Shown in pieces: positions 26,650-59,112 of a stretch of 64,000 nt of DNA. Location of the stretch: the NCBI GenBank assembly GCA_964036665.1, contig OZ038527.1:14291835-14355834 (forward strand), in the 5' to 3' direction. Source of the DNA: Gordius sp. MW1 (taxonomy: Eukaryota > Nematomorpha > Gordioida > Gordea > Gordiidae). The position numbers were made by a program, and so were the translations under genes. Within the stretch, counting starts at the first letter, position 1, and every line of letters starts with the position of its first letter. Below the pieces are notes generated by a model. That model was not told the DNA's origin. It made no database searches and worked only from the letters and a program-made list of their open reading frames with translations.

Positions 26650-26994
26650 GACAACTTTCATCGGATGAATACGGTTGAATAAAAAAATGTGAAAAATTTT
26701 GAGGTAAAAATATTCATTTTTTTTCGATTCTATGTGAAAGAGCGTAAAAAAATATATAAAAGTAAGCCAATTTGAGAATCCTATTATCCTCGATTGACTT
26801 CCGAAAAGAGGTTTTAAGCTGCGAGAACTATCATTTTGACAAAAGACAACGTTTTATTGTTGCGATTAGTTTGTTGTATCGCAACGTGAGTGCTTAATTT
26901 TTGAAAACTGCACTATGCGATCATGATTTCAAAGTAATAGTTTTCTGATTCTGATAAATTTTTACTTTTTATCATGGAAACAACGTCTGAAAAC
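26650..26994. repeat. Monomer at the junction of seven- and six-monomer HORs
   Basis: This monomer lacks the AGACAATTTCAG and GAGCACTATC marks expected of the next seven-monomer copy. It instead matches the last monomer of the following six-monomer unit (counterparts at 28699, 30748 and 32797; first offset exactly 2049 bp). The switch of HOR type therefore falls near 26.6 kb. Confidence 0.82.
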
Positions 26995-33485: not shown

Positions 33486-36400
33486 GACAACTTTTATCGG
33501 ATGAATACGGTTGAAAGAAAAAAATGTGAAAAATTTTGAGGTAAAAATATTCATTTTTTTCGATTTTATGTGAAAGAGCTTAAAAAAATATATAAAAATA
33601 AGCCGATTTGAGAATCCTATTATCCTCGATTGACTTCCGAAAAGAGGTTTTAAGCTGCGAGAACTATCATTTTGACAAAAGACAACGTTTTATTGTTGCG
33701 ATTAGTTTGTTGTATCGCAACGTGAGTGCTTAATTTTTGAAAACTGCACTATGCGACCATGATTTCAAAGTAATAGTTTTCAGATTCTGATAAATTTTTA
33801 CTCTTTATCATGGAAACAACGTCTGAAAACGACAACTTTCATCGGATAAATACGGTTGAATAAAAAAATGTGAAAATTTTTGAGGTTAAAAATTCATTTT
33901 TTTTTGGTTCTATGTGAAAGAGCGTAAAAAAATATATAAAAGTAAGCCAATTTGAGAATCCTATTATCCTCGATTGACTTCCGAAAAGAGGTTTTAAGCT
34001 GCGAGAACTATCATTTTGACAAAAGACAACGTTTTATTGTTGCGATTAGTTTGTTGTATCGCAACGTGAGTGCTTAATTTTTGAAAACTGCACTATGCGA
34101 GCATGATTTCAAGGTAATAGTTTTCTGATTCTGATAAATATTTACTCTTTATCATGGAAACAACGTCTGAAAACGACAACTTTCATCGGATGAATACGGT
34201 TGAATAAAAAAATGTGAAAATTTTTGAGGTAAAAATATTCATTTTTTTTCGATTCTATGTGAAAGAGCTTAAAAAAATATATAAAAGTAAGCCAATTTGA
34301 GAATCTATTATCCTCGATTGACTTCCGAAAAGAGGTTTTAAGCTGCGAGAACTATCATTTTGACAAAAGACAACGTTTTATTGTTGCGATTAGTTTGTTG
34401 TATCGCAACGTGAGTGTTTAATTTTTGAAAACTGCACTATGCGATCATGATTTCAAAGTAATAGTTTTCTGATTCTGATAAATTTTTACTTTTTATCATG
34501 GAAACAACGTCTGAAAACGACAACTTTCATCGGATGAATACGGTTGAATAAAAAAATGTGAAAAATTTTGAGGTAAAAATATTCATTTTTTTCGATTCTA
34601 TGTAAAAGAGCGTAAAAAAATATATAAAAGTAAGCCAATTTGAGAATCCTATTATCCTCGATTGACTTCCGAAAAAAGGTTTTAAGCTGCGAGAACTATC
34701 ATTTTGACAAAAGACAACGTTTTATTGTTACCGCAACGTGAGTTTTTAATTTTTGAAAACTGCCCTATGCGATCATGATTTCAAAGTAATAGTTTTCTGA
34801 TTCTGATAAATTTTTACTTTTTATCATATAAACCACGTCAGAAAACGACAACTTTTATCGAATGAATACGGTTGAAAGAAAAAAATGTGAAAAATTTTGA
34901 GGTAAAAATATTCATTTTTTTCGATTCTATGTGAAAGAGCTTGAAAAAATATATAAAAATAAGCCGATTTGAAAATCCTATTATCCTCGATTGACTTCCG
35001 AAAAGAGGTTTTAAGCTGCGAGAACTATCATTTTGACAAAAGACAACGTTTTATTGTTGCGATTAGTTTGTTGTATCGCAACGTGAGTTTTTAATTTTTG
35101 AAAACTGCTCTATGCGATCATGATTTCAAAGTAATAGTTTTCTGATTCTGATAAATTTTTACTTTTTATCATATAAACCACGTTAGAAAACGACAACTTT
35201 TATCGGATGAATACGGTTGAAAGAAAAAAATGTGAAAAATTTTAAGGTAAAAATATTTATTTTTTTCGATTCTATGTGAAAGAGCTTGAAAAAATATATA
35301 AAAATAAGCCGATTTGAGAATCCTATTATCCTCGATTGACTTCCGAAAAGAGGTTTTAAGCTGCGAGAACTATCATTTTGACAAAAGACAACGTTTTATT
35401 GTTCCGATTAGTTTGTTGTATCGCAACGTGAGTTTTTAATTTTTGAAAACTGCTCTATGCGATCATGATTTCAAAGTAATAGTTTTCTGATTCTGATAAA
35501 TTTTTACTTTTTATCATATAAACCACGTTAGAAAACGACAACTTTTATCGGATGAATACGGTTGAAAGAAAAAAATGTGAAAAATTTTGAGGTAAAAATA
35601 TTCATTTTTTTCGATTTTATGTGAAAGAGCTTAAAAAAATATATAAAAATAAGCCGATTTGAGAATCCTATTATCCTCGATTGACTTCCGAAAAGAGGTT
35701 TTAAGCTGCGAGAACTATCATTTTGACAAAAGACAACGTTTTATTGTTGCGATTAGTTTGTTGTATCGCAACGTGAGTGCTTAATTTTTGAAAACTGCAC
35801 TATGCGACCATGATTTCAAAGTAATAGTTTTCAGATTCTGATAAATTTTTACTCTTTATCATGGAAACAACGTCTGAAAACGACAACTTTCATCGGATAA
35901 ATACGGTTGAATAAAAAAATGTGAAAATTTTTGAGGTAAAAATATTCATTTTTTATGATTCTATGTGAAAGAGCGTAAAAAAATATATAAAAGTAAGCCA
36001 ATTTGAGAATCCTATTATCCTCGATTGACTTCCGAAAAGAGGTTTTAAGCTGCGAGAACTATCATTTTGACAAAAGACAACGTTTTATTGTTGCGATTAG
36101 TTTGTTGTATCGCAACGTGAGTGCTTAATTTTTGAAAACTGCACTATGCGATCATGATTTCAAGGTAATAGTTTTCTGATTCTGATAAATTTTTACTCTT
36201 TATCATGGAAACAACGTCTGAAAACGACAACTTTCATCGGATGAATACGGTTGAATAAAAAAATGTGAAAATTTTTGAGGTAAAAATATTCATTTTTTTT
36301 CGATTCTAGGTGAAAGAGCTTAAAAAAATATATAAAAGTAAGCCAATTTGAGAATCTATTATCCTCGATTGACTTCCGAAAAGAGGTTTTAAGCTGCGAG

Positions 36401-39400
36401 AACTATCATTTTGACAAAAGACAACGTTTTATTGTTACCGCAACGTGAGTTTTTAATTTTTGAAAACTGCCCTATGCGATCATGATTTCAAAGTAATAGT
36501 TTTCTGATTCTGATAAATTTTTACTTTTTATCATATAAACCACGTCAGAAAACGACAACTTTTATCGGATGAATACGGTTGAAAGAAAAAAATGTGAAAA
36601 ATTTTGAGGTAAAAATATTTATTTTTTTCGATTCTATGTGAAAGAGCTTGAAAAAATATATAAAAATAAGCCGATTTGAGAATCCTATTATCCTCGATTG
36701 ACTTCCGAAAAGAGGTTTTAAGCTGCGAGAACTATCATTTTGGCAAAAGACAACGTTTTATTGTTCCGATTAGTTTGTTGTATCGCAACGTGAGTTTTTA
36801 ATTTTTGAAAACTGCTCTATGCGATCATGATTTCAAAGTAATAGTTTTCTGATTCTGATAAATTTTTACTTTTTATCATATAAACCACGTTAGAAAACGA
36901 CAACTTTTATCGGATGAATACGGTTGAAAGAAAAAAATGTGAAAAATTTTAAGGTAATATTTATTTTTTTCGATTTTATGTGAAAGAGCTTAAAAAAATA
37001 TATAAAAATAAGCCGATTTGAGAATCCTATTATCCTCGATTGACTTCCGAAAAGAGGTTTTAAGCTGCGAGAACTATCATTTTGACAAAAGACAACGTTT
37101 TATTGTTGCGATTAGTTTGTTGTATCGCAACGTGAGTGCTTAATTTTTGAAAACTGCACTATGCGACCATGATTTCAAAGTAATAGTTTTCAGATTCTGA
37201 TAAATTTTTACTCTTTATCATGGAAACAACGTCTGAAAACGACAACTTTCATCGGATAAATACGGTTGAATAAAAAAATGTGAAAAATTTTGAGGTAAAA
37301 ATATTCATTTTTTTTTGATTCTATGTGAAAGAGCGTAAAAAAATATATAAAAGTAAGCCAATTTGAGAATCCTATTATCCTCGATTGACTTCCGAAAAGA
37401 GGTTTTAAGCTGCGAGAACTATCATTTTGACAAAAGACAACGTTTTATTGTTGCGATTAGTTTGTTGTATCGCAACGTGAGTGCTTAATTTTTGAAAACT
37501 GCACTATGCGATCATGATTTCAAGGTAATAGTTTTCTGATTCTGATAAATTTTTACTTTTTATCATATAAACCACGTTAGAAAACGACAACTTTTATCGG
37601 ATGAATACGGTTGAAAGAAAAAAATGTGAAAAATTTTGAGGTAAAAATATTCATTTTTTTCGATTTTATGTGAAAGAGCTTAAAAAAATATATAAAAATA
37701 AGCCGATTTGAGAATCCTATTATCCTCGATTGACTTCCGAAAAGAGGTTTTAAGCTGCGAGAACTATCATTTTGACAAAAGACAACGTTTTATTGTTGCG
37801 ATTAGTTTGTTGTATCGCAACGTGAGTGCTTAATTTTTGAAAACTGCACTATGCGATCATGATTTCAAAGTAATAGTTTTCAGATTCTGATAAATTTTTA
37901 CTCTTTATCATGGAAACAACGTCTGAAAACGACAACTTTCATCGGATGAATACGGTTGAATAAAAAAATGTGAAAAATTTTGAGGTAAAAATATTCATTT
38001 TTTTTCGATTCTATGTGAAAGAGCGTAAAAAAATATATAAAAGTAAGCCAATTTGAGAATCCTATTATCCTCGATTGACTTCCGAAAAAAGGTTTTAAGC
38101 TGCGAGAACTATCATTTTGACAAAAGACAACGTTTTATTGTTACGATTAGTTTGTTGTATCGCAACGTGAGTTTGTAATTTTTGAAAACTGCTCTATGCG
38201 ATCATGATTTCAAAGTAATAATTTTCTGATTCTGATAAATTTTTACTTTTTATCATATAAACCACGTCAGAAAACGACAACTTTTATCGGATGAATACGG
38301 TTGAAAGAAAAAAATGTGAAAAATTTTGAGGTAAAAATATTCATTTTTTTCGATTCTATGTGAAAGAGCTTGAAAAAATATATAAAAATAAGCCGATTTG
38401 AAAATCCTATTATCCTCGATTGACTTCCGAAAAGAGGTTTTAAGCTGCGAGAACTATCATTTTGACAAAAGACAACGTTTTATTGTTGCGATTAGTTTGT
38501 TGTATCGCAACGTGAGTTTTTAATTTTTGAAAACTGCTCTATGCGATCATGATTTCAAAGTAATAGTTTTCTGATTCTGATAAATTTTTACTTTTTATCA
38601 TATAAACCACGTTAGAAAACGACAACTTTTATCGGATGAATACGGTTGAAAGAAAAAAATGTGAAAAATTTTGAGGTAAAAATATTCATTCTTTTCGATT
38701 TTATGTGAAAGAGCTTAAAAAAATATATAAAAATAAGCCGATTTGAGAATCCTATTATCCTCGATTGACTTCCGAAAAGAGGTTTTATGCTGCGAGAACT
38801 ATCATTTTGACAAAAGACAACGTTTTATTGTTGCGATTAGTTTGTTGTATCGCAACGTGAGTGCTTAATTTTTGAAAACTGCACTATGCGACCATGATTT
38901 CAAAGTAATAGTTTTCTGATTCTGATAAATTTTTACTTTTTATCATATAAACCACGTTAGAAAACGACAACTTTTATCGGATGAATACGGTTGAAAGAAA
39001 AAAATGTGAAAAATTTTGAGGTAAAAATATTCATTTTTTTCGATTCTATGTGAAAGAGCGTAAAAAAATATATAAAAGTAAGCCAATTTGAGAATCCTAT
39101 TATCCTCGATTGACTTCCGAAAAGAGGTTTTAAGCTGCGAGAACTATCATTTTGACAAAAGACAACGTTTTATTGTTGCGATTAGTTTGTTGTATCGCAA
39201 CGTGAGTGCTTAATTTTTGAAAACTGCACTATGCGATCATGATTTCAAGGTAATAGTTTTCTGATTCTGATAAATTTTTACTCTTTATCATGGAAACAAC
39301 GTCTGAAAACGACAACTTTCATCGGATGAATACGGTTGAATAAAAAAATGTGAAAATTTTTGAGGTAAAAATATTCATTTTTTTTCGATTCTAGGTGAAA

Positions 39401-39638
39401 GAGCTTAAAAAAATATATAAAAGTAAGCCAATTTGAGAATCTATTATCCTCGATTGACTTCCGAAAAGAGGTTTTAAGCTGCGAGAACTATCATTTTGAC
39501 AAAAGACAACGTTTTATTGTTACCGCAACGTGAGTTTTTAATTTTTGAAAACTGCCCTATGCGATCATGATTTCAAAGTAATAGTTTTCTGATTCTGATA
39601 AATTTTTACTTTTTATCATATAAACCACGTCAGAAAAC
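33486..39638. repeat. Mixed satellite block between the six- and nine-monomer HORs
   Basis: Monomer starts are 33486, 33831, 34175, 34519, 34847, 35192, 35537, 35882, 36226, 36554, 36899, 37241, 37586, 37931, 38276, 38621, 38966 and 39311. Short dyad-deleted monomers lie at 34519, 36226 and 39311. CTAGGTGAAAG marks those at 36226 and 39311. Near 36953 a loss reduces GGTAAAAATATTTA to GGTAATATTTA. The part from 38621 onward (GAGGTTTTATGCTGCG near 38781) is the first copy of a 5119-bp duplication described below. No gene is present. Confidence 0.92.
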
Positions 39639-42600
39639 GACAACTTTTATCGAATGAATACGGTTGAAAGAAAAAAAAGGGAAAAATTTTGAGGTAAAAA
39701 TATTTATTTTTTTCGATTCTATGTGAAAGAGCTTGAAAAAATATATAAAAATAAGACAATTTCAGAATCCTATTATCCTCGATTGACTTCCGAAAAGAGG
39801 TTTTAAGCTGCGAGAACTATCATTTTGACAAAAGACAACGTTTTATTGTTGCGATTAGTTTGTTGTATCGCAACGTGAGTTTTTAATTTTTGAAAACTGC
39901 TCTATGCGATCATGATTTCAAAGTAATAGTTTTCTGATTCTGATAAATTTTTACTTTTTATCATATAAACCACGTTAGAAAACGACAACTTTTATCGGAT
40001 GAATACGGTTGAAAGAAAAAAATGTGAAAAATTTTGAGGTAAAAATATTCATTTTTTTCGATTTTATGTGAAAGAGCTTAAAAAAATATATAAAAATAAG
40101 CCGATTTGAGAATCCTATTATCCTCGATTGACTTCCGAAAAGAGGTTTTAAGCTGCGAGAACTATCATTTTGACAAAAGACAACGTTTTATTGTTGCGAT
40201 TAGTTTGTTGTATCGCAACGTGAGTGCTTAATTTTTGAAAACTGCACTATGCGACCATGATTTCAAAGTAATAGTTTTCAGATTCTGATAAATTTTTACT
40301 CTTTATCATGGAAACAACGTCTGAAAACGACAACTTTCATCGGATAAATACGGTTGAATAAAAAAATGTGAAAATTTTTGAGGTTAAAATATTCATTTTT
40401 TTTTGGTTCTATGTGAAAGAGCGTAAAAAAATATATAAAAGTAAGCCAATTTGAGAATCCTATTATCCTCGATTGACTTCCGAAAAGAGGTTTTAAGCTG
40501 CGAGAACTATCATTTTGACAAAAGACAACGTTTTATTGTTGCGATTAGTTTGTTGTATCGCAACGTGAGTGCTTAATTTTTGAAAACTGCACTATGCGAT
40601 CATGATTTCAAGGTAATAGTTTTCTGATTCTGATAAATTTTTACTCTTTATCATGGAAACAACGTCTGAAAACGACAACTTTCATCGGATGAATACGGTT
40701 GAATAAAAAAATGTGAAAATTTTTGAGGTAAAAATATTCATTTTTTTTCGATTTGTGAAAGAGCTTAAAAAAATATATAAAAGTAAGCCAATTTGAGAAT
40801 CTATTATCCTCGATTGACTTCCGAAAAGAGGTTTTAAGCTGCGAGAACTATCATTTTGACAAAAGACAACGTTTTATTGTTGCGATTAGTTTGTTGTATC
40901 GCAACGTGAGTGTTTAATTTTTGAAAACTGCACTATGCGATCATGATTTCAAAGTAATAGTTTTCTGATTCTGATAAATTTTTACTTTTTATCATGGAAA
41001 CAACGTCTGAAAACGACAACTTTCATCGGATGAATACGGTTGAATAAAAAAATGTGAAAAATTTTGAGGTAAAAATATTCATTTTTTTCGATTCTATGTA
41101 AAAGAGCGTAAAAAAATATATAAAAGTAAGCCAATTTGAGAATCCTATTATCCTCGATTGACTTCCGAAAAAAGGTTTTAAGCTGCGAGAACTATCATTT
41201 TGACAAAAGACAACGTTTTATTGTTACCGCAACGTGAGTTTTTAATTTTTGAAAACTGCCCTATGCGATCATGATTTCAAAGTAATAGTTTTCTGATTCT
41301 GATAAATTTTTACTTTTTATCATATAAACCACGTCAGAAAACGACAACTTTTATCGAATGAATACGGTTGAAAGAAAAAAAAGGGAAAAATTTTGAGGTA
41401 AAAATATTTATTTTTTTCGATTCTATGTGAAAGAGCTTGAAAAAATATATAAAAATAAGACAATTTCAGAATCCTATTATCCTCGATTGACTTCCGAAAA
41501 GAGGTTTTAAGCTGCGAGAACTATCATTTTGACAAAAGACAACGTTTTATTGTTGCGATTAGTTTGTTGTATCGCAACGTGAGTGCTTAATTTTTGAAAA
41601 CTGCACTATGCGATCATGATTTTAAGGTAATAGTTTTCTGATTTTGATAAATTTTTACTCTTTATCATGGAAACAACGTCTGAAAACGACAACTTTCATC
41701 GGATGAATACGGTTGAATAAAAAAATGTGAAAAATTTTGAGGTAAAAATATTCATTTTTTTTCGATTCTATGTGAAAGAGCTTAAAAAAATATATAAAAG
41801 TAAGCCAATTTGAGAATCTATTATCCTCGATTGACTTCCGAAAAGAGGTTTTAAGCTGCGAGAACTATCATTTTGACAAAAGACACCGTTTTATTGTTGC
41901 GATTAGTTTGTTGTATCGCAACGTGAGTGTTTAATTTTTGAAAACTGCACTATGCGATCATGATTTCAAAGTAATAGTTTTCTGATTCTGATAAATTTTT
42001 ACTTTTTATCATGGAAACAACGTCTGAAAACGACAACTTTCATCGGATGAATACGGTTGAATAAAAAAATGTGAAAAATTTTGAGGTAAAAATATTCATT
42101 TTTTTTCGATTCTATGTGAAAGAGCGTAAAAAAATATATAAAAGTAAGCCAATTTGAGAATCCTATTATCCTCGATTGACTTCCGAAAAGAGGTTTTAAG
42201 CTGCGAGAACTATCATTTTGACAAAAGACAACGTTTTATTGTTGCGATTAGTTTGTTGTATCGCAACGTGAGTGCTTAATTTTTGAAAACTGCACTATGC
42301 GATCATGATTTCAAAGTAATAGTTTTCTGATTCTGATAAATTTTTACTTTTTATCATGGAAACAACGTCTGAAAACGACAACTTTCATCGGATGAATACG
42401 GTTGAATAAAAAAATGTGAAAAATTTTGAGGTAAAAATATTTAGTTTTTTCGATTCTATGTGAAAGAGCGTAAAAAAATATATAAAAGTAAGCCAATTTG
42501 AGAATCCTATTATCCTCGATTGACTTCCGAAAAAAGGTTTTAAGCTGCGAGAACTATCATTTTGACAAAAGACAACGTTTTATTGTTACCGCAACGTGAG

Positions 42601-43739
42601 TTTTTAATTTTTGAAAACTGCCCTATGCGATCATGATTTCAAAGTAATAGTTTTCTGATTCTGATAAATTTTTACTTTTTATCATATAAACCACGTCAGA
42701 AAACGACAACTTTTATCGAATGAATACGGTTGAAAGAAAAAAAAGGGAAAAATTTTGAGGTAAAAATATTTATTTTTTTCGATTCTATGTGAAAGAGCTT
42801 GAAAAAATATATAAAAATAAGACAATTTCAGAATCCTATTATCCTCGATTGACTTCCGAAAAGAGGTTTTAAGCTGCGAGAACTATCATTTTGACAAAAG
42901 ACAACGTTTTATTGTTGCGATTAGTTTGTTGTATCGCAACGTGAGTTTTTAATTTTTGAAAACTGCTCTATGCGATCATGATTTCAAAGTAATAGTTTTC
43001 TGATTCTGATAAATTTTTACTTTTTATCATATAAACCACGTTAGAAAACGACAACTTTTATCGGATGAATACGGTTGAAAGAAAAAAATGTGAAAAATTT
43101 TGAGGTAAAAATATTCATTTTTTTCGATTTTATGTGAAAGAGCTTAAAAAAATATATAAAAATAAGCCGATTTGAGAATCCTATTATCCTCGATTGACTT
43201 CCGAAAAGAGGTTTTAAGCTGCGAGAACTATCATTTTGACAAAAGACAACGTTTTATTGTTGCGATTAGTTTGTTGTATCGCAACGTGAGTGCTTAATTT
43301 TTGAAAACTGCACTATGCGACCATGATTTCAAAGTAATAGTTTTCAGATTCTGATAAATTTTTACTCTTTATCATGGAAACAACGTCTGAAAACGACAAC
43401 TTTCATCGGATAAATACGGTTGAATAAAAAAATGTGAAAATTTTTGAGGTTAAAATATTCATTTTTTTTTGGTTCTATGTGAAAGAGCGTAAAAAAATAT
43501 ATAAAAGTAAGCCAATTTGAGAATCCTATTATCCTCGATTGACTTCCGAAAAGAGGTTTTAAGCTGCGAGAACTATCATTTTGACAAAAGACAACGTTTT
43601 ATTGTTGCGATTAGTTTGTTGTATCGCAACGTGAGTGCTTAATTTTTGAAAACTGCACTATGCGATCATGATTTCAAAGTAATAGTTTTCTGATTCTGAT
43701 AAATTTTTACTTTTTATCATATAAACCACGTTAGAAAAC
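38621..43739. repeat. 15-monomer (5119-bp) superunit, copy 1
   Basis: This unit is three monomers (38621, 38966, 39311), a nine-monomer HOR (39639-42704) and three more monomers (42705, 43050, 43395). The next 15 monomers repeat it: counterparts lie 5119 bp downstream, for example 39639 to 44758, 41015 to 46134 and 42705 to 47824. Rare marks agree: GAGGTTTTATGC near 38781 and 43900, CTAGGTGAAAG near 39391 and 44511, CGATTTGTGAAAG at 40749 and 45868, GACACCG at 41882 and 47001. Confidence 0.9.
39639..42704. repeat. Nine-monomer higher-order repeat, copy 1 (3066 bp)
   Basis: Monomer starts are 39639, 39984, 40329, 40674, 41015, 41343, 41688, 42032 and 42377 (lengths 345, 345, 345, 341, 328, 345, 344, 345, 328). 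Monomers 1 and 6 carry AAAAAAAGGGAAAAATTT and AGACAATTTCAG. Monomer 3 has GGATAAATACGG and TTTTGGTTCTATG. Monomer 4 has the 3-bp loss CGATTTGTGAAAG. Monomers 5 and 9 lack 16 bp of the dyad. Monomer 7 has GACACCG. Private changes include ATTTTGATAAATT near 41641 and ATTTAGTTTTTTCG near 42438. Confidence 0.94.
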
Positions 43740-44757
43740 GACAACTTTTATCGGATGAATACGGTTGAAAGAAAAAAATGTGAAAAATTTTGAGGTAAAA
43801 ATATTCATTTTTTTCGATTTTATGTGAAAGAGCTTAAAAAAATATATAAAAATAAGCCGATTTGAGAATTATATTATCCTCGATTGACTTCCGAAAAGAG
43901 GTTTTATGCTGCGAGAACTATCATTTTGACAAAAGACAACGTTTTATTGTTGCGATTAGTTTGTTGTATCGCAACGTGAGTGCTTAATTTTTGAAAACTG
44001 CACTATGCGACCATGATTTCAAAGTAATAGTTTTCTGATTCTGATAAATTTTTACTTTTTATCATATAAACCACGTTAGAAAACGACAACTTTTATCGGA
44101 TGAATACGGTTGAAAGAAAAAAATGTGAAAAATTTTGAGGTAAAAATATTCATTTTTTTCGATTCTATGTGAAAGAGCGTAAAAAAATATATAAAAGTAA
44201 GCCAATTTGAGAATCCTATTATCCTCGATTGACTTCCGAAAAGAGGTTTTAAGCTGCGAGAACTATCATTTTGACAAAAGACAACGTTTTATTGTTGCGA
44301 TTAGTTTGTTGTATCGCAACGTGAGTGCTTAATTTTTGAAAACTGCACTATGCGATCATGATTTCAAGGTAATAGTTTTCTGATTCTGATAAATTTTTAC
44401 TCTTTATCATGGAAACAACGTCTGAAAACGACAACTTTCATCGGATGAATACGGTTGAATAAAAAAATGTGAAAATTTTTGAGGTAAAAATATTCATTTT
44501 TTTTCGATTCTAGGTGAAAGAGCTTAAAAAAATATATAAAAGTAAGCCAATTTGAGAATCTATTATCCTCGATTGACTTCCGAAAAGAGGTTTTAAGCTG
44601 CGAGAACTATCATTTTGACAAAAGACAACGTTTTATTGTTACCGCAACGTGAGTTTTTAATTTTTGAAAACTGCCCTATGCGATCATGATTTCAAAGTAA
44701 TAGTTTTCTGATTCTGATAAATTTTTACTTTTTATCATATAAACCACGTCAGAAAAC
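42705..44757. repeat. Six-monomer insert between nine-monomer HOR copies (2053 bp)
   Basis: Monomer starts are 42705, 43050, 43395, 43740, 44085 and 44430. The first three match monomers 1-3 of the nine-monomer HOR. At about 43670-43740 the pattern switches: the tail reads CAAAGTAATAG with ATATAAACCACGTT rather than CAAGGTAATAG with ATGGAAACAACG. The last three monomers match the linker 38621-39638. The block is the seam of the 15-monomer duplication. GAATTATATTATCC near 43866 is private to it. Confidence 0.9.
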
Positions 44758-47700
44758 GACAACTTTTATCGAATGAATACGGTTGAAAGAAAAAAAAGGG
44801 AAAAATTTTGAGGTAAAAATATTTATTTTTTTCGATTCTATGTGAAAGAGCTTGAAAAAATATATAAAAATAAGACAATTTCAGAATCCTATTATCCTCG
44901 ATTGACTTCCGAAAAGAGGTTTTAAGCTGCGAGAACTATCATTTTGACAAAAGACAACGTTTTATTGTTGCGATTAGTTTGTTGTATCGCAACGTGAGTT
45001 TTTAATTTTTGAAAACTGCTCTATGCGATCATGATTTCAAAGTAATAGTTTTCTGATTCTGATAAATTTTTACTTTTTATCATATAAACCACGTTAGAAA
45101 ACGACAACTTTTATCGGATGAATACGGTTGAAAGAAAAAAATGTGAAAAATTTTGAGGTAAAAATATTCATTTTTTTCGATTTTATGTGAAAGAGCTTAA
45201 AAAAATATATAAAAATAAGCCGATTTGAGAATCCTATTATCCTCGATTGACTTCCGAAAAGAGGTTTTAAGCTGCGAGAACTATCATTTTGACAAAAGAC
45301 AACGTTTTATTGTTGCGATTAGTTTGTTGTATCGCAACGTGAGTGCTTAATTTTTGAAAACTGCACTATGCGACCATGATTTCAAAGTAATAGTTTTCAG
45401 ATTCTGATAAATTTTTACTCTTTATCATGGAAACAACGTCTGAAAACGACAACTTTCATCGGATAAATACGGTTGAATAAAAAAATGTGAAAATTTTTGA
45501 GGTTAAAATATTCATTTTTTTTTGGTTCTATGTGAAAGAGCGTAAAAAAATATATAAAAGTAAGCCAATTTGAGAATCCTATTATCCTCGATTGACTTCC
45601 GAAAAGAGGTTTTAAGCTGCGAGAACTATCATTTTGACAAAAGACAACGTTTTATTGTTGCGATTAGTTTGTTGTATCGCAACGTGAGTGCTTAATTTTT
45701 GAAAACTGCACTATGCGATCATGATTTCAAGGTAATAGTTTTCTGATTCTGATAAATTTTTACTCTTTATCATGGAAACAACGTCTGAAAACGACAACTT
45801 TCATCGGATGAATACGGTTGAATAAAAAAATGTGAAAATTTTTGAGGTAAAAATATTCATTTTTTTTCGATTTGTGAAAGAGCTTAAAAAAATATATAAA
45901 AGTAAGCCAATTTGAGAATCTATTATCCTCGATTGACTTCCGAAAAGAGGTTTTAAGCTGCGAGAACTATCATTTTGACAAAAGACAACGTTTTATTGTT
46001 GCGATTAGTTTGTTGTATCGCAACGTGAGTGTTTAATTTTTGAAAACTGCACTATGCGATCATGATTTCAAAGTAATAGTTTTCTGATTCTGATAAATTT
46101 TTACTTTTTATCATGGAAACAACGTCTGAAAACGACAACTTTCATCGGATGAATACGGTTGAATAAAAAAATGTGAAAAATTTTGAGGTAAAAATATTCA
46201 TTTTTTTCGATTCTATGTAAAAGAGCGTAAAAAAATATATAAAAGTAAGCCAATTTGAGAATCCTATTATCCTCGATTGACTTCCGAAAAAAGGTTTTAA
46301 GCTGCGAGAACTATCATTTTGACAAAAGACAACGTTTTATTGTTACCGCAACGTGAGTTTTTAATTTTTGAAAACTGCCCTATGCGATCATGATTTCAAA
46401 GTAATAGTTTTCTGATTCTGATAAATTTTTACTTTTTATCATATAAACCACGTCAGAAAACGACAACTTTTATCGAATGAATACGGTTGAAAGAAAAAAA
46501 AGGGAAAAATTTTGAGGTAAAAATATTTATTTTTTTCGATTCTATGTGAAAGAGCTTGAAAAAATATATAAAAATAAGACAATTTCAGAATCCTATTATC
46601 CTCGATTGACTTCCGAAAAGAGGTTTTAAGCTGCGAGAACTATCATTTTGACAAAAGACAACGTTTTATTGTTGCGATTAGTTTGTTGTATCGCAACGTG
46701 AGTGCTTAATTTTTGAAAACTGCACTATGCGATCATGATTTTAAGGTAATAGTTTTCTGATTCTGATAAATTTTTACTCTTTATCATGGAAACAACGTCT
46801 GAAAACGACAACTTTCATCGGATGAATACGGTTGAATAAAAAAATGTGAAAAATTTTGAGGTAAAAATATTCATTTTTTTTCGATTCTATGTGAAAGAGC
46901 TTAAAAAAATATATAAAAGTAAGCCAATTTGAGAATCTATTATCCTCGATTGACTTCCGAAAAGAGGTTTTAAGCTGCGAGAACTATCATTTTGACAAAA
47001 GACACCGTTTTATTGTTGCGATTAGTTTGTTGTATCGCAACGTGAGTGTTTAATTTTTGAAAACTGCACTATGCGATCATGATTTCAAAGTAATAGTTTT
47101 CTGATTCTGATAAATTTTTACTTTTTATCATGGAAACAACGTCTGAAAACGACAACTTTCATCGGATGAATACGGTTGAATAAAAAAATGTGAAAAATTT
47201 TGAGGTAAAAATATTCATTTTTTTTCGATTCTATGTGAAAGAGCGTAAAAAAATATATAAAAGTAAGCCAATTTGAGAATCCTATTATCCTCGATTGACT
47301 TCCGAAAAGAGGTTTTAAGCTGCGAGAACTATCATTTTGACAAAAGACAACGTTTTATTGTTGCGATTAGTTTGTTGTATCGCAACGTGAGTGCTTAATT
47401 TTTGAAAACTGCACTATGCGATCATGATTTCAAAGTAATAGTTTTCTGATTCTGATAAATTTTTACTTTTTATCATGGAAACAACGTCTGAAAACGACAA
47501 CTTTCATCGGATGAATACGGTTGAATAAAAAAATGTGAAAAATTTTGAGGTAAAAATATTTATTTTTTTCGATTCTATGTGAAAGAGCGTAAAAAAATAT
47601 ATAAAAGTAAGCCAATTTGAGAATCCTATTATCCTCGATTGACTTCCGAAAAAAGGTTTTAAGCTGCGAGAACTATCATTTTGACAAAAGACAACGTTTT

Positions 47701-48858
47701 ATTGTTACCGCAACGTGAGTTTTTAATTTTTGAAAACTGCCCTATGCGATCATGATTTCAAAGTAATAGTTTTCTGATTCTGATAAATTTTTACTTTTTA
47801 TCATATAAACCACGTCAGAAAACGACAACTTTTATCGAATGAATACGGTTGAAAGAAAAAAAAGGGAAAAATTTTGAGGTAAAAATATTTATTTTTTTCG
47901 ATTCTATGTGAAAGAGCTTGAAAAAATATATAAAAATAAGACAATTTCAGAATCCTATTATCCTCGATTGACTTCCGAAAAGAGGTTTTAAGCTGCGAGA
48001 ACTATCATTTTGACAAAAGACAACGTTTTATTGTTGCGATTAGTTTGTTGTATCGCAACGTGAGTTTTTAATTTTTGAAAACTGCTCTATGCGATCATGA
48101 TTTCAAAGTAATAGTTTTCTGATTCTGATAAATTTTTACTTTTTATCATATAAACCACGTTAGAAAACGACAACTTTTATCGGATGAATACGGTTGAAAG
48201 AAAAAAATGTGAAAAATTTTGAGGTAAAAATATTCATTTTTTTCGATTTTATGTGAAAGAGCTTAAAAAAATATATAAAAATAAGCCGATTTGAGAATCC
48301 TATTATCCTCGATTGACTTCCGAAAAGAGGTTTTAAGCTGCGAGAACTATCATTTTGACAAAAGACAACGTTTTATTGTTGCGATTAGTTTGTTGTATCG
48401 CAACGTGAGTGCTTAATTTTTGAAAACTGCACTATGCGACCATGATTTCAAAGTAATAGTTTTCAGATTCTGATAAATTTTTACTCTTTATCATGGAAAC
48501 AACGTCTGAAAACGACAACTTTCATCGGATAAATACGGTTGAATAAAAAAATGTGAAAATTTTTGAGGTTAAAATATTCATTTTTTTTTGGTTCTATGTG
48601 AAAGAGCGTAAAAAAATATATAAAAGTAAGCCAATTTGAGAATCCTATTATCCTCGATTGACTTCCGAAAAGAGGTTTTAAGCTGCGAGAACTATCATTT
48701 TGACAAAAGACAACGTTTTATTGTTGCGATTAGTTTGTTGTATCGCAACGTGAGTGCTTAATTTTTGAAAACTGCACTATGCGATCATGATTTCAAGGTA
48801 ATAGTTTTCTGATTCTGATAAATTTTTACTCTTTATCATGGAAACAACGTCTGAAAAC
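43740..48858. repeat. 15-monomer (5119-bp) superunit, copy 2
   Basis: Monomer starts are 43740, 44085, 44430, 44758, 45103, 45448, 45793, 46134, 46462, 46807, 47151, 47496, 47824, 48169 and 48514. The three-monomer linker 43740-44757 repeats 38621-39638. After 48859 the sequence continues as a nine-monomer HOR instead of returning to the linker, so the superunit is present only twice. Confidence 0.88.
44758..47823. repeat. Nine-monomer higher-order repeat, copy 2 (3066 bp)
   Basis: Monomer starts are 44758, 45103, 45448, 45793, 46134, 46462, 46807, 47151 and 47496, with the same length series as copy 1. All diagnostic marks are in the same order: AAAAAAGGGAAAAATTT at monomers 1 and 6, CGATTTGTGAAAG at 45868, and GACACCG at 47001. 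Confidence 0.95.
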
Positions 48859-50890
48859 GACAACTTTCATCGGATGAATACGGTTGAATAAAAAAATGTG
48901 AAAATTTTTGAGGTAAAAATATTCATTTTTTTTCGATTTGTGAAAGAGCTTAAAAAAATATATAAAAGTAAGCCAATTTGAGAATCTATTATCCTCGATT
49001 GACTTCCGAAAAGAGGTTTTAAGCTGCGAGAACTATCATTTTGACAAAAGACAACGTTTTATTGTTGCGATTAGTTTGTTGTATCGCAACGTGAGTGTTT
49101 AATTTTTGAAAACTGCACTATGCGATCATGATTTCAAAGTAATAGTTTTCTGATTCTGATAAATTTTTACTTTTTATCATGGAAACAACGTCTGAAAACG
49201 ACAACTTTCATCGGATGAATACGGTTGAATAAAAAAATGTGAAAAATTTTGAGGTAAAAATATTCATTTTTTTCGATTCTATGTAAAAGAGCGTAAAAAA
49301 ATATATAAAAGTAAGCCAATTTGAGAATCCTATTATCCTCGATTGACTTCCGAAAAAAGGTTTTAAGCTGCGAGAACTATCATTTTGACAAAAGACAACG
49401 TTTTATTGTTACCGCAACGTGAGTTTTTAATTTTTGAAAACTGCCCTATGCGATCATGATTTCAAAGTAATAGTTTTCTGATTCTGATAAATTTTTACTT
49501 TTTATCATATAAACCACGTCAGAAAACGACAACTTTTATCGAATGAATACGGTTGAAAGAAAAAAAAGGGAAAAATTTTGAGGTAAAAATATTTATTTTT
49601 TTCGATTCTATGTGAAAGAGCTTGAAAAAATATATAAAAATAAGACAATTTCAGAATCCTATTATCCTCGATTGACTTCCGAAAAGAGGTTTTAAGCTGC
49701 GAGAACTATCATTTTGACAAAAGACAACGTTTTATTGTTGCGATTAGTTTGTTGTATCGCAACGTGAGTGCTTAATTTTTGAAAACTGCACTATGCGATC
49801 ATGATTTTAAGGTAATAGTTTTCTGATTCTGATAAATTTTTACTCTTTATCATGGAAACAACGTCTGAAAACGACAACTTTCATCGGATGAATACGGTTG
49901 AATAAAAAAATGTGAAAAATTTTGAGGTAAAAATATTCATTTTTTTTCGATTCTATGTGAAAGAGCTTAAAAAAATATATAAAAGTAAGCCAATTTGAGA
50001 ATCTATTATCCTCGATTGACTTCCGAAAAGAGGTTTTAAGCTGCGAGAACTATCATTTTGACAAAAGACACCGTTTTATTGTTGCGATTAGTTTGTTGTA
50101 TCGCAACGTGAGTGTTTAATTTTTGAAAACTGCACTATGCGATCATGATTTCAAAGTAATAGTTTTCTGATTCTGATAAATTTTTACTTTTTATCATGGA
50201 AACAACGTCTGAAAACGACAACTTTCATCGGATGAATACGGTTGAATAAAAAAATGTGAAAAATTTTGAGGTAAAAATATTCATTTTTTTTTCGATTCTA
50301 TGTGAAAGAGCGTAAAAAAATATATAAAAGTAAGCCAATTTGAGAATCCTATTATCCTCGATTGACTTCCGAAAAGAGGTTTTAAGCTGCGAGAACTATC
50401 ATTTTGACAAAAGACAACGTTTTATTGTTGCGATTAGTTTGTTGTATCGCAACGTGAGTGCTTAATTTTTGAAAACTGCACTATGCGATCATGATTTCAA
50501 AGTAATAGTTTTCTGATTCTGATAAATTTTTACTTTTTATCATGGAAACAACGTCTGAAAACGACAACTTTCATCGGATGAATACGGTTGAATAAAAAAA
50601 TGTGAAAAATTTTGAGGTAAAAATATTTATTTTTTTCGATTCTATGTGAAAGAGCGTAAAAAAATATATAAAAGTAAGCCAATTTGAGAATCCTATTATC
50701 CTCGATTGACTTCCGAAAAAAGGTTTTAAGCTGCGAGAACTATCATTTTGACAAAAGACAACGTTTTATTGTTACCGCAACGTGAGTTTTTAATTTTTGA
50801 AAACTGCCCTATGCGATCATGATTTCAAAGTAATAGTTTTCTGATTCTGATAAATTTTTACTTTTTATCATATAAACCACGTCAGAAAAC
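47824..50890. repeat. Nine-monomer higher-order repeat, copy 3 (3067 bp)
   Basis: Monomer starts are 47824, 48169, 48514, 48859, 49200, 49528, 49873, 50217 and 50563. Length differs from copy 2 by one base, an extra T in the T run near 50282. CGATTTGTGAAAG is at 48934 and GACACCG at 50067, each 3066 bp after the copy 2 positions. It directly abuts copy 2. Confidence 0.95.
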
Positions 50891-53628
50891 GACAACTTTT
50901 ATCGAATGAATACGGTTGAAAGAAAAAAAAGGGAAAAATTTTGAGGTAAAAATATTTATTTTTTTCGATTCTATGTGAAAGAGCTTGAAAAAATATATAA
51001 AAATAAGACAATTTCAGAATCCTATTATCCTCGATTGACTTCCGAAAAGAGGTTTTAAGCTGCGAGAACTATCATTTTGACAAAAGACAACGTTTTATTG
51101 TTGCGATTAGTTTGTTGTATCGCAACGTGAGTTTTTAATTTTTGAAAACTGCTCTATGCGATCATGATTTCAAAGTAATAGTTTTCTGATTCTGATAAAT
51201 TTTTACTTTTTATCATATAAACCACGTTAGAAAACGACAACTTTTATCGGATGAATACGGTTGAAAGAAAAAAATGTGAAAAATTTTGAGGTAAAAATAT
51301 TCATTTTTTTCGATTTTATGTGAAAGAGCTTAAAAAAATATATAAAAATAAGCCGATTTGAGAATCCTATTATCCTCGATTGACTTCCGAAAAGAGGTTT
51401 TAAGCTGCGAGAACTATCATTTTGACAAAAGACAACGTTTTATTGTTGCGATTAGTTTGTTGTATCGCAACGTGAGTGCTTAATTTTTGAAAACTGCACT
51501 ATGCGACCATGATTTCAAAGTAATAGTTTTCAGATTCTGATAAATTTTTACTCTTTATCATGGAAACAACGTCTGAAAACGACAACTTTCATCGGATAAA
51601 TACGGTTGAATAAAAAAATGTGAAAATTTTTGAGGTTAAAATATTCATTTTTTTTTGGTTCTATGTGAAAGAGCGTAAAAAAATATATAAAAGTAAGCCA
51701 ATTTGAGAATCCTATTATCCTCGATTGACTTCCGAAAAGAGGTTTTAAGCTGCGAGAACTATCATTTTGACAAAAGACAACGTTTTATTGTTGCGATTAG
51801 TTTGTTGTATCGCAACGTGAGTGCTTAATTTTTGAAAACTGCACTATGCGATCATGATTTCAAGGTAATAGTTTTCTGATTCTGATAAATTTTTACTCTT
51901 TATCATGGAAACAACGTCTGAAAACGACAACTTTCATCGGATGAATACGGTTGAATAAAAAAATGTGAAAATTTTTGAGGTAAAAATATTCATTTTTTTT
52001 CGATTTGTGAAAGAGCTTAAAAAAATATATAAAAGTAAGCCAATTTGAGAATCTATTATCCTCGATTGACTTCCGAAAAGAGGTTTTAAGCTGCGAGAAC
52101 TATCATTTTGACAAAAGACAACGTTTTATTGTTGCGATTAGTTTGTTGTATCGCAACGTGAGTGTTTAATTTTTGAAAACTGCACTATGCGATCATGATT
52201 TCAAAGTAATAGTTTTCTGATTCTGATAAATTTTTACTTTTTATCATGGAAACAACGTCTGAAAACGACAACTTTCATCGGATGAATACGGTTGAATAAA
52301 AAAATGTGAAAAATTTTGAGGTAAAAATATTCATTTTTTTCGATTCTATGTAAAAGAGCGTAAAAAAATATATAAAAGTAAGCCAATTTGAGAATCCTAT
52401 TATCCTCGATTGACTTCCGAAAAAAGGTTTTAAGCTGCGAGAACTATCATTTTGACAAAAGACAACGTTTTATTGTTACCGCAACGTGAGTTTTTAATTT
52501 TTGAAAACTGCCCTATGCGATCATGATTTCAAAGTAATAGTTTTCTGATTCTGATAAATTTTTACTTTTTATCATATAAACCACGTCAGAAAACGACAAC
52601 TTTTATCGAATGAATACGGTTGAAAGAAAAAAAAGGGAAAAATTTTGAGGTAAAAATATTTATTTTTTTCGAATCTATGTGAAAGAGCTTGAAAAAATAT
52701 ATAAAAATAAGACAATTTCAGAATCCTATTATCCTCGATTGACTTCCGAAAAGAGGTTTTAAGCTGCGAGAACTATCATTTTGACAAAAGACAACGTTTT
52801 ATTGTTGCGATTAGTTTGTTGTATCGCAACGTGAGTGCTTAATTTTTTAAAACTGCACTATGCGATCATGATTTTAAGGTAATAGTTTTCTGATTCTGAT
52901 AAATTTTTACTCTTTATCATGGAAACAACGTCTGAAAACGACAACTTTCATCGGATGAATACGGTTGAATAAAAAAATGTGAAAAATTTTGAGGTAAAAA
53001 TATTCATTTTTTTTCGATTCTATGTGAAAGAGCTTAAAAAAATATATAAAAGTAAGCCAATTTGAGAATCTATTATCCTCGATTGACTTCCGAAAAGAGG
53101 TTTTAAGCTGCGAGAACTATCATTTTGACAAAAGACACCGTTTTATTGTTGCGATTAGTTTGTTGTATCGCAACGTGAGTGTTTAATTTTTGAAAACTGC
53201 ACTATGCGATCATGATTTCAAAGTAATAGTTTTCTGATTCTGATAAATTTTTACTTTTTATCATGGAAACAACGTCTGAAAACGACAACTTTCATCGGAT
53301 GAATACGGTTGAATAAAAAAATGTGAAAAATTTTGAGGTAAAAATATTCATTTTTTTTTGATTCTATGTGAAAGAGCGTAAAAAAATATATAAAAGTAAG
53401 CCAATTTGAGAATCCTATTATCCTCGATTGACTTCCGAAAAGAGGTTTTAAGCTGCGAGAACTATCATTTTGACAAAAGACAACGTTTTATTGTTGCGAT
53501 TAGTTTGTTGTATCGCAACGTGAGTGCTTAATTTTTGAAAACTGCACTATGCGATCATGATTTCAAGGTAATAGTTTTCTGATTCTGATAAATTTTTACT
53601 CTTTATCATGGAAACAACGTCTGAAAAC
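50891..53628. repeat. Nine-monomer higher-order repeat, copy 4, incomplete
   Basis: Monomer starts are 50891, 51236, 51581, 51926, 52267, 52595, 52940 and 53284. CGATTTGTGAAAG is at 52001 and GACACCG at 53134, 3067 bp after copy 3. The pattern breaks in the eighth monomer: it has TTTTTTTTTGATTC and a CAAGGTAATAG tail instead of the expected TCGATTC and CAAAGTAATAG, and the ninth, dyad-deleted monomer is missing. Private changes include CGAATCTATG near 52669 and TTTTTTAAAACTGCACTATG near 52843. Confidence 0.92.
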
Positions 53629-54318
53629 GACAACTTTCATCGGATGAATACGGTTGAATAAAAAAATGTGAAAAATTTTGAGGTAAAAATATTCATTTTT
53701 TTTCGATTCTATGTGAAAGAGCGTAAAAAAATATATAAAAGTAAGCCAATTTGAAAATCCTATTATCCTCGATTGACTTCCGAAAAGAGGTTTTAAGCTG
53801 CGAGAACTATCATTTTGACAAAAGACAACGTTTTATTGTTGCGATTAGTTTGTTGTATCGCAACGTGAGTGCTTAATTTTTGAAAACTGCACTATGCGAT
53901 CATGATTTCAAAGTAATAGTTTTCAGATTCTGATAAATTTTTACTCTTTATCATGGAAACAACGTCTGAAAACGACAACTTTCATCGGATGAATACGGTT
54001 GAATAAAAAAATGTGAAAAATTTTGAGGTAAAAATATTCATTTTTTTTCGATTCTATGTGAAAGAGCGTAAAAAAATATATAAAAGTAAGCCAATTTGAA
54101 AATCCTATTATCCTCGATTGACTTCCGAAAAGAGGTTTTAAGCTGCGAGAACTATCATTTTGACAAAAGACAACGTTTTATTGTTGCGATTAGTTTGTTG
54201 TATCGCAACGTGAGTGCTTAATTTTTGAAAACTGCACTATGCGATCATGATTTCAAAGTAATAGTTTTCAGATTCTGATAAATTTTTACTCTTTATCATG
54301 GAAACAACGTCTGAAAAC
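53629..54318. repeat. Perfect tandem monomer doublet (2 x 345 bp)
   Basis: Read base by base, the monomers at 53629 and 53974 appear identical over 345 bp, including the uncommon TTTGAAAATCC, TTTTCAGATTC and TTACTCTTTATC. A third copy that looks the same is at 58768. Adjacent identical monomers are rare in this array, where neighbours usually belong to different types, so this looks like a very recent single-monomer duplication. Confidence 0.88.
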
Positions 54319-56370
54319 GACAACTTTCATCGGATGAATACGGTTGAATAAAAAAATGTGAAAAATTTTGAGGTAAAAATATTCATTTTTTTTCGATTCT
54401 ATGTGAAAGAGCGTAAAAAAATATATAAAAGTAAGCCAATTTGAGAATCCTATTATCCTCGATTGACTTCCGAAAAAAGGTTTTAAGCTGCGAGAACTAT
54501 CATTTTGACAAAAGACAACGTTTTATTGTTACGATTAGTTTGTTGTATCGCAACGTGAGTTTGTAATTTTTGAAAACTGCTCTATGCGATCATGATTTCA
54601 AAGTAATAATTTTCTGATTCTGATAAATTTTTACTTTTTATCATATAAACCACGTCAGAAAACGACAACTTTTATCGGATGAATACGGTTGAAAGAAAAA
54701 AATGTGAAAAATTTTGAGGTAAAAATATTCATTTTTTTCGATTCTATGTGAAAGAGCTTGAAAAAATATATAAAAATAAGCCGATTTGAAAATCCTATTA
54801 TCCTCGATTGACTTCCGAAAAGAGGTTTTAAGCTGCGAGAACTATCATTTTGACAAAAGACAACGTTTTATTGTTGCGATTAGTTTGTTGTATCGCAACG
54901 TGAGTTTTTAATTTTTGAAAACTGCTCTATGCGATCATGATTTCAAAGTAATAGTTTTCTGATTCTGATAAATTTTTACTTTTTATCATATAAACCACGT
55001 TAGAAAACGACAACTTTTATCGGATGAATACGGTTGAAAGAAAAAAATGTGAAAAATTTTAAGGTAAAAATATTTATTTTTTTCGATTCTATGTGAAAGA
55101 GCTTGAAAAAATATATAAAAATAAGCCGATTTGAGAATCCTATTATCCTCGATTGACTTCCGAAAAGAGGTTTTAAGCTGCGAGAACTATCATTTTGACA
55201 AAAGACAACGTTTTATTGTTCCGATTAGTTTGTTGTATCGCAACGTGAGTTTTTAATTTTTGAAAACTGCTCTATGCGATCATGATTTCAAAGTAATAGT
55301 TTTCTGATTCTGATAAATTTTTACTTTTTATCATATAAACCCGTTAGAAAACGACAACTTTTATCGGATGAATACGGTTGAAAGAAAAAAATGTGAAAAA
55401 TTTTGAGGTAAAAATATTCATTTTTTTCGATTTTATGTGAAAGAGCTTAAAAAAATATATAAAAATAAGCCGATTTGAGAATCCTATTATCCTCGATTGA
55501 CTTCCGAAAAGAGGTTTTAAGCTGCGAGAACTATCATTTTGACAAAAGACAACGTTTTATTGTTGCGATTAGTTTGTTGTATCGCAACGTGAGTGCTTAA
55601 TTTTTGAAAACTGCACTATGCGACCATGATTTCAAAGTAATAGTTTTCAGATTCTGATAAATTTTTACTCTTTATCATGGAAACAACGTCTGAAAACGAC
55701 AACTTTCATCGGATAAATACAGTTGAATAAAAAAATGTGAAAATTTTTGAGGTAAAAATATTCATTTTTTTTTGATTCTATGTGAAAGAGCGTAAAAAAA
55801 TATATAAAAGTAAGCCAATTTGAGAATCCTATTATCCTCGATTGACTTCCGAAAAGAGGTTTTAAGCTGCGAGAACTATCATTTTGACAAAAGACAACGT
55901 TTTATTGTTGCGATTAGTTTGTTGTATCGCAACGTGAGTGCTTAATTTTTGAAAACTGCACTATGCGATCATGATTTCAAGGTAATAGTTTTCTGATTCT
56001 GATAAATTTTTACTCTTTATCATGAAAACAACGTCTGAAAACGACAACTTTCATCGGATGAATACGGTTGAATAAAAAAATGTGAAATTTTTTGAGGTAA
56101 AAATATTCATTTTTTTTCGATTCTAGGTGAAAGAGCTTAAAAAAATATATAAAAGTAAGCCAATTTGAGAATCTATTATCCTCGATTGACTTCCGAAAAG
56201 AGGTTTTAAGCTGCGAGAACTATCATTTTGACAAAAGACAACGTTTTATTGTTACCGCAACGTGAGTTTTTAATTTTTGAAAACTGCCCTATGCGATCAT
56301 GATTTCAAAGTAATAGTTTTCTGATTCTGATAAATTTTTACTTTTTATCATATAAACCACGTCAGAAAAC
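54319..56370. repeat. Satellite segment echoing 34.8-38.6 kb
   Basis: Monomer starts are 54319, 54664, 55009, 55353, 55698 and 56043. The rare GTGAGTTTGTAATTTTTG near 54556 also occurs near 38168 and in no other place I saw. The monomers at 54664 and 55009 share CCGATTTGAAAATCC and TTTTAAGGTAAAAATATTT with 34847 and 35192. CTAGGTGAAAG near 56124 matches 36226. Near 55340 the tail CATATAAACCCGTT has lost one base. No gene is present. Confidence 0.9.
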
Positions 56371-59112
56371 GACAACTTTTATCGAATGAATACGGTTGAA
56401 AGAAAAAAAAGGGAAAAATTTTGAGGTAAAAATATTTATTTTTTTCGATTCTATGTGAAAGAGCTTGAAAAAATATATAAAAATAAGACAATTTCAGAAA
56501 CCTATTATCCTCGATTGACTTCCGAAAAGAGGTTTTAAGCTGCGAGAACTATCATTTTGACAAAAGACAACGTTTTATTGTTGCGATTAGTTTGTTGTAT
56601 CGCAACGTGAGTGCTTAATTTTTGAAAACTGCACTATGCGATCATGATTTTAAGGTAATAGTTTTGTGATTCTGATAAATTTTTACTCTTTATCATGGAA
56701 ACAACGTCTGAAAACGACAACTTTCATCGGATGAATACGGTTGAATAAAAAAATGTGAAAAATTTTGAGGTAAAAATATTCATTTTTTTTCGATTCTATG
56801 TATAGAGCTTAAAAAAATATATAAAAGTAAGCCAATTTGAGAATCTATTATCTTCGATTGACTTCCGAAAAGAGGTTTTAAGCTGCGAGAACTATCATTT
56901 TGACAAAAGACAACGTTTTATTGTTGCGATTAGTTTGTTGTATCGCAACGTGAGTGTTTAATTTTTGAAAACTGCACTATGCGATCATGATTTCAAAGTA
57001 ATAGTTTTCTGATTCTGATAAATTTTTACTTTTTATCATGGAAACAACGTCTGAAAACGACAACTTTCATCGGATGAATACGGTTGAATAAAAAAATGTG
57101 AAAAATTTTGAGGTAAAAATATTCATTTTTTTTCGATTCTATGTGAAAGAGCGTAAAAAAATATATAAAAGTAAGCCAATTTGAGAATCCTATTATCCTC
57201 GATTGACTTCCGAAAAGAGGTTTTAAGCTGCGAGAACTATCATTTTGACAAAAGACAACGTTTTATTGTTGCGATTAGTTTGTTGTATCGCAACGTGAGT
57301 GCTTAATTTTTGAAAACTGCACTATGCGATCATGATTTCAAAGTAATAGTTTTCTTATTCTGATAAATTTTTACTTTTTATCATGGAAACAACGTCTGAA
57401 AACGACAACTTTCATCGGATGAATACGGTTGAATAAAAAAATGTGAAAAATTTTGAGGTAAAAATATTCATTTTTTTCGATTCTATGTTGAAAGAGCGTA
57501 AAAAAATATATAAAAGTAAGCCAATTTGAGAATCCTATTATCCTCGATTGACTTCCGAAAAAAGGTTTTAAGCTGCGAGAACTATCATTTTGACAAAAGA
57601 CAACGTTTTATTGTTACCGCAACGTGAGTTTTTAATTTTTGAAAACTGCCCTATGCGATCATGATTTCAAAGTAATAGTTTTCTGATTCTGATAAATTTT
57701 TACTTTTTATCATATAAACCACGTCAGAAAACGACAACTTTTATCGGATGAATACGGTTGAAAGAAAAAAATGTGAAAAATTTTGAGGTAAAAATATTCA
57801 TTTTTTTCGATTCTATATGAAAGAGCTTGAAAAAATATATAAAAATAAGCCGATTTGAGAATCCTATTATCCTCGATTGACTTCCGAAAAGAGGTTTTAA
57901 GCTGCGAGAACTATCATTTTGACAAAAGACAACGTTTTATTGTTCCGATTAGTTTGTTGTATCGCAACGTGAGTTTTTAATTTTTGAAAACTGCTCTATG
58001 CGATCATGATTTCAAAGTAATAGTTTTCTGATTCTGATAAATTTTTACTTTTTATCATATAAACCACGTTAGAAAACGACAACTTTTATCGGATGAATAC
58101 GGTTGAAAGAAAAAAATGTGAAAAATTTTAAGGTAAAAATATTTATTTTTTTCGATTTTATGTGAAAGAGCTTAAAAAAATATATAAAAATAAGCCGATT
58201 TGAGAATCCTATTATCCTCGATTGACTTCCGAAAAGAGGTTTTAAGCTGCGAGAACTATCATTTTGACAAAAGACAACGTTTTATTGTTGCGATTAGTTT
58301 GTTGTATCGCAACGTGAGTGCTTAATTTTTGAAAACTGCACTATGCGACCATGATTTCAAAGTAATAGTTTTCAGATTCTGATAAATTTTTACTCTTTAT
58401 CATGGAAACAACGTCTGAAAACGACAACTTTCATCGGATAAATACGGTTGAATAAAAAAATGTGAAAAATTTTGAGGTAAAAATATTCATTTTTTTTTGA
58501 TTCTTTGTGAAAGAGCGTAAAAAAATATATAAAAGTAAGCCAATTTGAGAATCCTATTATCCTCGATTGACTTCCGAAAAGAGGTTTTAAGCTGCGAGAA
58601 CTATCATTTTGACAAAAGACAACGTTTTATTGTTGCGATTAGTTTGTTGTATCGCAACGTGAGTGCTTAATTTTTGAAAACTGCACTATGCGATCATGAT
58701 TTCAAGGTAATAGTTTTCTGATTCTGATAAATTTTTACTCTTTATCATGGAAACAACGTCTGAAAACGACAACTTTCATCGGATGAATACGGTTGAATAA
58801 AAAAATGTGAAAAATTTTGAGGTAAAAATATTCATTTTTTTTCGATTCTATGTGAAAGAGCGTAAAAAAATATATAAAAGTAAGCCAATTTGAAAATCCT
58901 ATTATCCTCGATTGACTTCCGAAAAGAGGTTTTAAGCTGCGAGAACTATCATTTTGACAAAAGACAACGTTTTATTGTTGCGATTAGTTTGTTGTATCGC
59001 AACGTGAGTGCTTAATTTTTGAAAACTGCACTATGCGATCATGATTTCAAAGTAATAGTTTTCAGATTCTGATAAATTTTTACTCTTTATCATGGAAACA
59101 ACGTCTGAAAAC
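56371..59112. repeat. Satellite block with HOR-derived monomers
   Basis: Monomer starts are 56371, 56716, 57059, 57404, 57733, 58078, 58423 and 58768. The monomer at 56371 has AAAAAAGGGAAAAATTT and is followed, as in the nine-monomer HOR, by a GAATCTATTATC monomer, but without GACACCG. The monomer at 56716 has the private change CTATGTATAGAGC near 56797. One at 57404 is short and carries an extra T (ATGTTGAAAG near 57486). No gene is present. Confidence 0.9.

Follow-up and report, generated by a model that had tools for sequence, protein, structure and literature searches.

The window analysed here is the whole 64,000-bp stretch C1:14291835-14355834 of the Gordius sp. MW1 genome, which comprises 211.8 Mb in 12 contigs. 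One tandem array with a period of 345 covers the entire window (Tandem Repeats Finder), and within this ~345-bp satellite lies the feature of interest, a nine-monomer block (N) present in four copies together with an overlapping 15-monomer duplication. A surrounding 264-kb stretch (C1 14141835-14405834) was used for comparison; of its 746 anchors, all on the plus strand, 742 monomers were aligned after three long gaps and the open last one were dropped. Window and surroundings thus form a long head-to-tail array of a single monomer, that is, satellite DNA, and the mean identity over all pairs of the 186 window monomers is 94.5%. The features are as follows.

1..64000, plus strand: whole window, head-to-tail ~345-bp satellite with 187 monomer anchors
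38753..43677, plus strand: left copy of the 15-monomer duplication, with 2 mismatches over its 4925 bp against 43872-48796 (offset 5119)
43872..48796, plus strand: 15-monomer duplication, right copy
39469..42534, plus strand: nine-monomer unit copy 1 (N1), 3066 bp, bearing private changes at 41644 and 42444
42535..43677, plus strand: truncated start of the nine (3.3 monomers), identical over 1143 bp to 39469-40611 and 44588-45730
43535..43879, plus strand: chimeric monomer, left part matching monomer 4 of the nine, right part matching the flank upstream of N1
43658..43677, plus strand: putative exchange-point interval of 20 bp, between the last mismatch to the flank parent (43657) and the first mismatch to the nine parent (43678)
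44588..47653, plus strand: nine-monomer unit copy 2 (N2), 3066 bp
47654..50720, plus strand: nine-monomer unit copy 3 (N3), 3067 bp
50721..53566 (end approximate), plus strand: nine-monomer unit copy 4 (N4), diverging after about 93% of the unit

Two short marks trace the nine-monomer unit. The 13-bp mark CGATTTGTGAAAG is found at 40749, 45868, 48934 and 52001 and at no other site in the window (0.01 expected), and these four copies are also the only ones in the 264 kb; the 48-bp context of this first mark has four exact copies in the entire 211.8-Mb genome, all within the window. GACACCG is found at 41882, 47001, 50067 and 53134 (1.18 expected in the window), plus an extra copy at 11479 that the preliminary description did not mention. 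The spacings it reported (5119, 3066 and 3067) are exact for both marks, and the nested multi-monomer duplication it proposed is borne out by the repeats beneath the pattern, which are exact over 2891 bp (offset 5119), 2638 bp (offset 3066) and 2388 bp (offset 3067), and by the identity of the units. When three of the unit intervals that it had delimited were compared, 39639-42704 differed from 44758-47823 by 2 mismatches in 3066 and from 47824-50890 by 2 mismatches and 1 gap, while the latter two differed from each other by 0 mismatches and 1 gap. The three complete units are more than 99.9% identical, compared with 94.5% for the monomer background, so their likeness is above that of random monomers. 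Additionally, the fraction of monomer pairs that are at least 99% identical is 0.13-0.18 at shifts of 6, 9, 15 and 24 monomers versus 0.02-0.11 at the other 36 shifts between 1 and 40.

The order resolved from the exact repeats is flank (two monomers), N1, the first 3.3 monomers of N, flank, N2, N3 and N4. The arrangement had been given as nine, six, nine, nine and a broken nine. The nines stand, whereas the 'six' (42705-44757) consists of a truncated nine followed by flank, and the broken nine, although incomplete as stated, retains most of the unit with few private changes. The T run at 50275-50293 is one T longer in N3 than in N1 and N2. N4 carries two private substitutions (52673 and 52848) before the T run, which in this copy has nine Ts and lacks the C that follows; this can be read as the extra T of N3 being shared and the C lost, or as a separate C-to-T change.

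The chimeric monomer agrees with the nine up to 43677 and with the upstream flank (offset 5119) from 43658. The nine-to-nine junction is exact over 1233 bp in three places (42445-43677, 47564-48796 and 50631-51863). Since this junction already lies within both 15-monomer copies, the nine had most likely been duplicated in tandem at least once before, and the suggestion that a 5119-bp stretch was duplicated first, or together with the nine, is most likely wrong. As far as the sequence indicates, the nine-monomer duplication most likely preceded the 15-monomer one, although later gene conversion could mimic this order; because distinguishing changes are few and conversion is possible, the order could be blurred.

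The nine-monomer feature is thus very probably a recent, private, four-copy local amplification in a large ~345-bp array that arose through in-register unequal homologous exchange or an equivalent process. Block N would have been tandemly duplicated at least once, after which monomer 4 of a second N would have recombined with a monomer in the flank upstream, an exchange that would have duplicated 15 monomers and produced both the chimeric monomer and the apparent 'six'. Given N already in tandem, a single in-register exchange would yield the observed order, and a few point changes would have occurred afterwards. The exchange partners may have been sister chromatids or homologues, with replication-based mispairing as an alternative. 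Most likely, the nine-monomer unit has no function of its own.

Duplications of this kind recur in the surrounding array. The 264 kb contain 74 runs of at least four near-identical monomers, whereas none of 20 shuffles of the monomer order produced any. Tandem multi-monomer duplications there make up 21 rows with 12 unit lengths (4, 6, 7, 8, 9, 10, 12, 14, 15, 17, 18 and 24 monomers), none of which is dominant, and involve 297 of the 742 monomers; several rows describe one structure, and the 15-monomer row, the 24-monomer row and one nine-monomer row are the feature described here. The nine-monomer unit has the highest copy count by run length (2.9, or four copies counting N1), and no unit exceeds about four. 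In rare-variant clusters on C6 (16.25-16.28 Mb) the spacings are 2044, 2754, 2053, 2754 and 2052, and on C2 (11.77 Mb) the series 2729, 1034, 1031 recurs; nested-looking patterns therefore recur on other chromosomes. A toy simulation in which blocks were duplicated and deleted at random and mutations accrued produced overlapping duplications of differing unit length in all 27 of 27 runs. By the contrast of units with background monomers and of runs with shuffles, the nine-monomer feature is a higher-order repeat (HOR) in the local sense; with four genome copies of the mark context and neighbouring units of 4 to 24 monomers, it is not an HOR array of the alpha-satellite kind. The pattern is real but ordinary for satellite DNA, and it looks like the product of stochastic local unequal exchange with no chromosome-wide HOR.

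Several points weigh against this account. The flank part of the seam (43658-43871) has 3 mismatches to its partner in 214 positions, versus 2 in 4925 inside the duplication, which exceeds the prediction of a single young exchange; a later conversion tract would have to be assumed there. Exchange, break-induced replication and conversion are indistinguishable at this locus. The simulation was unfitted, with a median monomer divergence of 3 to 152 differences versus 19 observed, and its rows numbered 24-632, every run lying above the observed 21; it therefore shows sufficiency and no match, and the real array has, if anything, less structure than the simulated ones. Lastly, the structure is that of the assembly, in which there may be collapse or expansion errors. 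Such an error, the mis-copying of a near-identical nine-monomer unit by the assembler, could in principle account for the whole feature, as units of 3 kb that are more than 99.9% identical form a structure that assemblers can miscount (general knowledge). However, N1, N3 and N4 each bear the private changes given above, a specific chimeric junction is present, and C1 has TTAGGG telomere repeats at each end, so that an artefact of this kind is unlikely.

Other duplications lie close by, two of them in the window.

26670..31130, plus strand: separate six-monomer tandem duplication, 2.5 copies, 2412 bp exact at offset 2049
23360..26748, plus strand: separate seven-monomer duplication, exact over 1014 bp at offset 2375

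To the right of the window, C1 14373809-14385446 holds a tandem duplication of 17 monomers (5819 bp), with 1 difference over those 17 monomers, which is larger than the nine-monomer feature and about as young; a related copy exists, and its spacing spans the insertion of a long terminal repeat (LTR) retrotransposon. That retrotransposon sits inside the satellite at C1:14360319-14366220, 4.5 kb beyond the right edge of the window. As its two LTRs of 618 bp show no difference from each other, it inserted recently, and the element reads by eye as Gypsy-type. To the left of the window, one monomer is interrupted by a non-satellite insertion of about 2.4 kb (C1:14278344-14281052), which by eye reads as a decayed DNA element containing a FLYWCH-like stretch.

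The satellite itself is abundant. A 66-bp satellite core has, at up to 3 mismatches, 23,525 and 32,646 matches in the genome, or at least 56,171 near-matches, which multiplied by about 344 bp amount to about 19 Mb (~9% of the whole genome). The genome contigs comprise eight large ones (C1-C7, 28.2 to 21.1 Mb; C8, 37.4 Mb), small pieces and the mitochondrial contig C12. According to sparse probes and matches, the satellite spans 11.25-14.58 Mb of C1 with gaps and orientation changes, on the plus strand at 11.25, 11.65-12.45 and 13.30-14.52 Mb and on the minus strand at 11.30, 12.70 and 14.54-14.58 Mb. A weak 142-base match (68%) was found at 13.15 Mb and none by anchor at 13.00 Mb; probes at 11.20, 14.60 and 14.62 Mb detected no satellite. 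Two fully listed rare-variant samples (42 of 42 and 61 of 61 matches) gave interior sites on C1, C2, C3, C5, C6, C7 and C8. None of these 42 + 61 matches is on C4, which counts against a (peri)centromeric role or leaves it open. One stray satellite match, at C3:3.41 Mb, is among the matches listed, and among these the satellite on C2 reaches no further than 12.33 Mb. Another variant is present in 10,641 copies genome-wide, but not one exact copy lies in the 264-kb stretch of C1, where an even spread predicts about 140; arrays are therefore regionally distinct. At gathering scores Rfam had 0 matches in the window, and no internal dimer structure above that of shuffles was found within the monomer. 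A 10.45-bp peak of AA/TT periodicity was set aside as a harmonic of the repeat (345/33). A literature search, mostly without subscription papers, found no named satellite relatable to this one, and the phrase '345 bp' occurs in none of 9 papers that one query returned.

With its interior placement, its dominance and its regional homogenisation, the ~345-bp family fits a (peri)centromeric satellite; such a role is plausible from the sequence, and the family is a good candidate for the main satellite of this type, C4 being the chromosome on which it was not seen. Evidence from centromere proteins was sought as well. The CENP-B box is absent from many centromeric satellites. The core searched for here, which is taken to be that of the CENP-B box, has 0 exact matches on either strand of the window; a search that allowed up to 2 mismatches and covered the plus strand gave 3. 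CENP-C_C had no match in the genome, in a search run without a eukaryotic control and for an 85-position domain that exons may split. A CENP-A gene was not identified among the histone-fold sites that were read, namely an H3, an H3 pseudogene and an H3 that has apparent introns. It is very unlikely that the C1 array would be the functional centromere, with its youngest private duplications marking the kinetochore site and its orientation switches making it a macro-dyad centromere outside Tribolium. The preliminary description had also likened the two-level pattern to active centromeric satellites, a likeness that finds no support at the level of the HOR, and although satellite matches in the interior of seven of the eight chromosomes and regionally distinct arrays are in keeping with a nine-monomer stretch that is part of an active-centromere HOR, amplified and kept since kinetochore chromatin forms there, the four exact genome copies of the mark context, unrelated unit lengths throughout the 264 kb, the missing CENP-B-box core and, as a weak test, the unmatched CENP-C_C make this reading highly unlikely.

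Further observations concern the rest of the genome. C12, the mitochondrial contig, bears COX1 (found by Pfam) and reads by the invertebrate code; nad1 (minus strand), cox2 and atp6, recognised by eye, adjoin COX1. The order cox1-cox2-cox3 published for Strigamia (PMC4368715), which has 2n = 16 (PMC4769173), is a different one. Several nuclear copies of the mitochondrial COX1 occur on C1, C3, C4, C5 and C8, some close to contig ends, and the profile length of the copy at C8 2.83 Mb equals that of the mitochondrial gene. On C2, histone genes form two large tandem clusters (12985957-13214431 and 15175767-15284061) with periods of about 5.2 and 6.3 kb, and the first of these switches strand at least 2 times. 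The cuticle family PF00379 had no match in a profile search without a positive control, which makes an arthropod source look unlikely.

As far as the literature search reaches, only the ~345-bp satellite itself is new here. The value of the locus is that an apparent single unequal exchange is visible at base resolution, from its two parents and the chimeric monomer down to an exchange interval of 20 bp. It also cautions against taking a two-level HOR pattern for evidence of centromere activity. If the satellite is that of the centromere, the genome would offer several assembled arrays in which homogenisation can be studied.

Human alpha-satellite HOR arrays consist of one unit in hundreds to thousands of repeats over megabases, whereas the mark context of the nine-monomer unit is limited to its four exact copies. 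The two are alike in that units are far closer than monomers and crossovers expand and homogenise them (general knowledge, and the available part of PMC2853522). The putative (peri)centromeric regions of Tribolium madens, in the available part of PMC13081366, are likewise multi-megabase and show orientation switches, but these macro-dyad regions are made up of two intermingled satellites and switch every few to tens of kb; the likeness is one of description, the switches on C1 coming from sparse probes. Melters et al. (2013) reported clear HORs in 76 of 171 species with Sanger data, according to the available part of PMC4053949; HORs being so widespread, a local HOR in a satellite is of a known kind. 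The same part of that paper describes a single read from a switchgrass centromere in which a 1,131-bp unit, built from six monomers and one truncated monomer, is repeated five and a half times. Switchgrass is a plant and its monomer is 175 bp, but it shares with the present array the mixing of complete and truncated monomers, the nine-monomer unit containing 329-bp monomers beside those of 341-345 bp.

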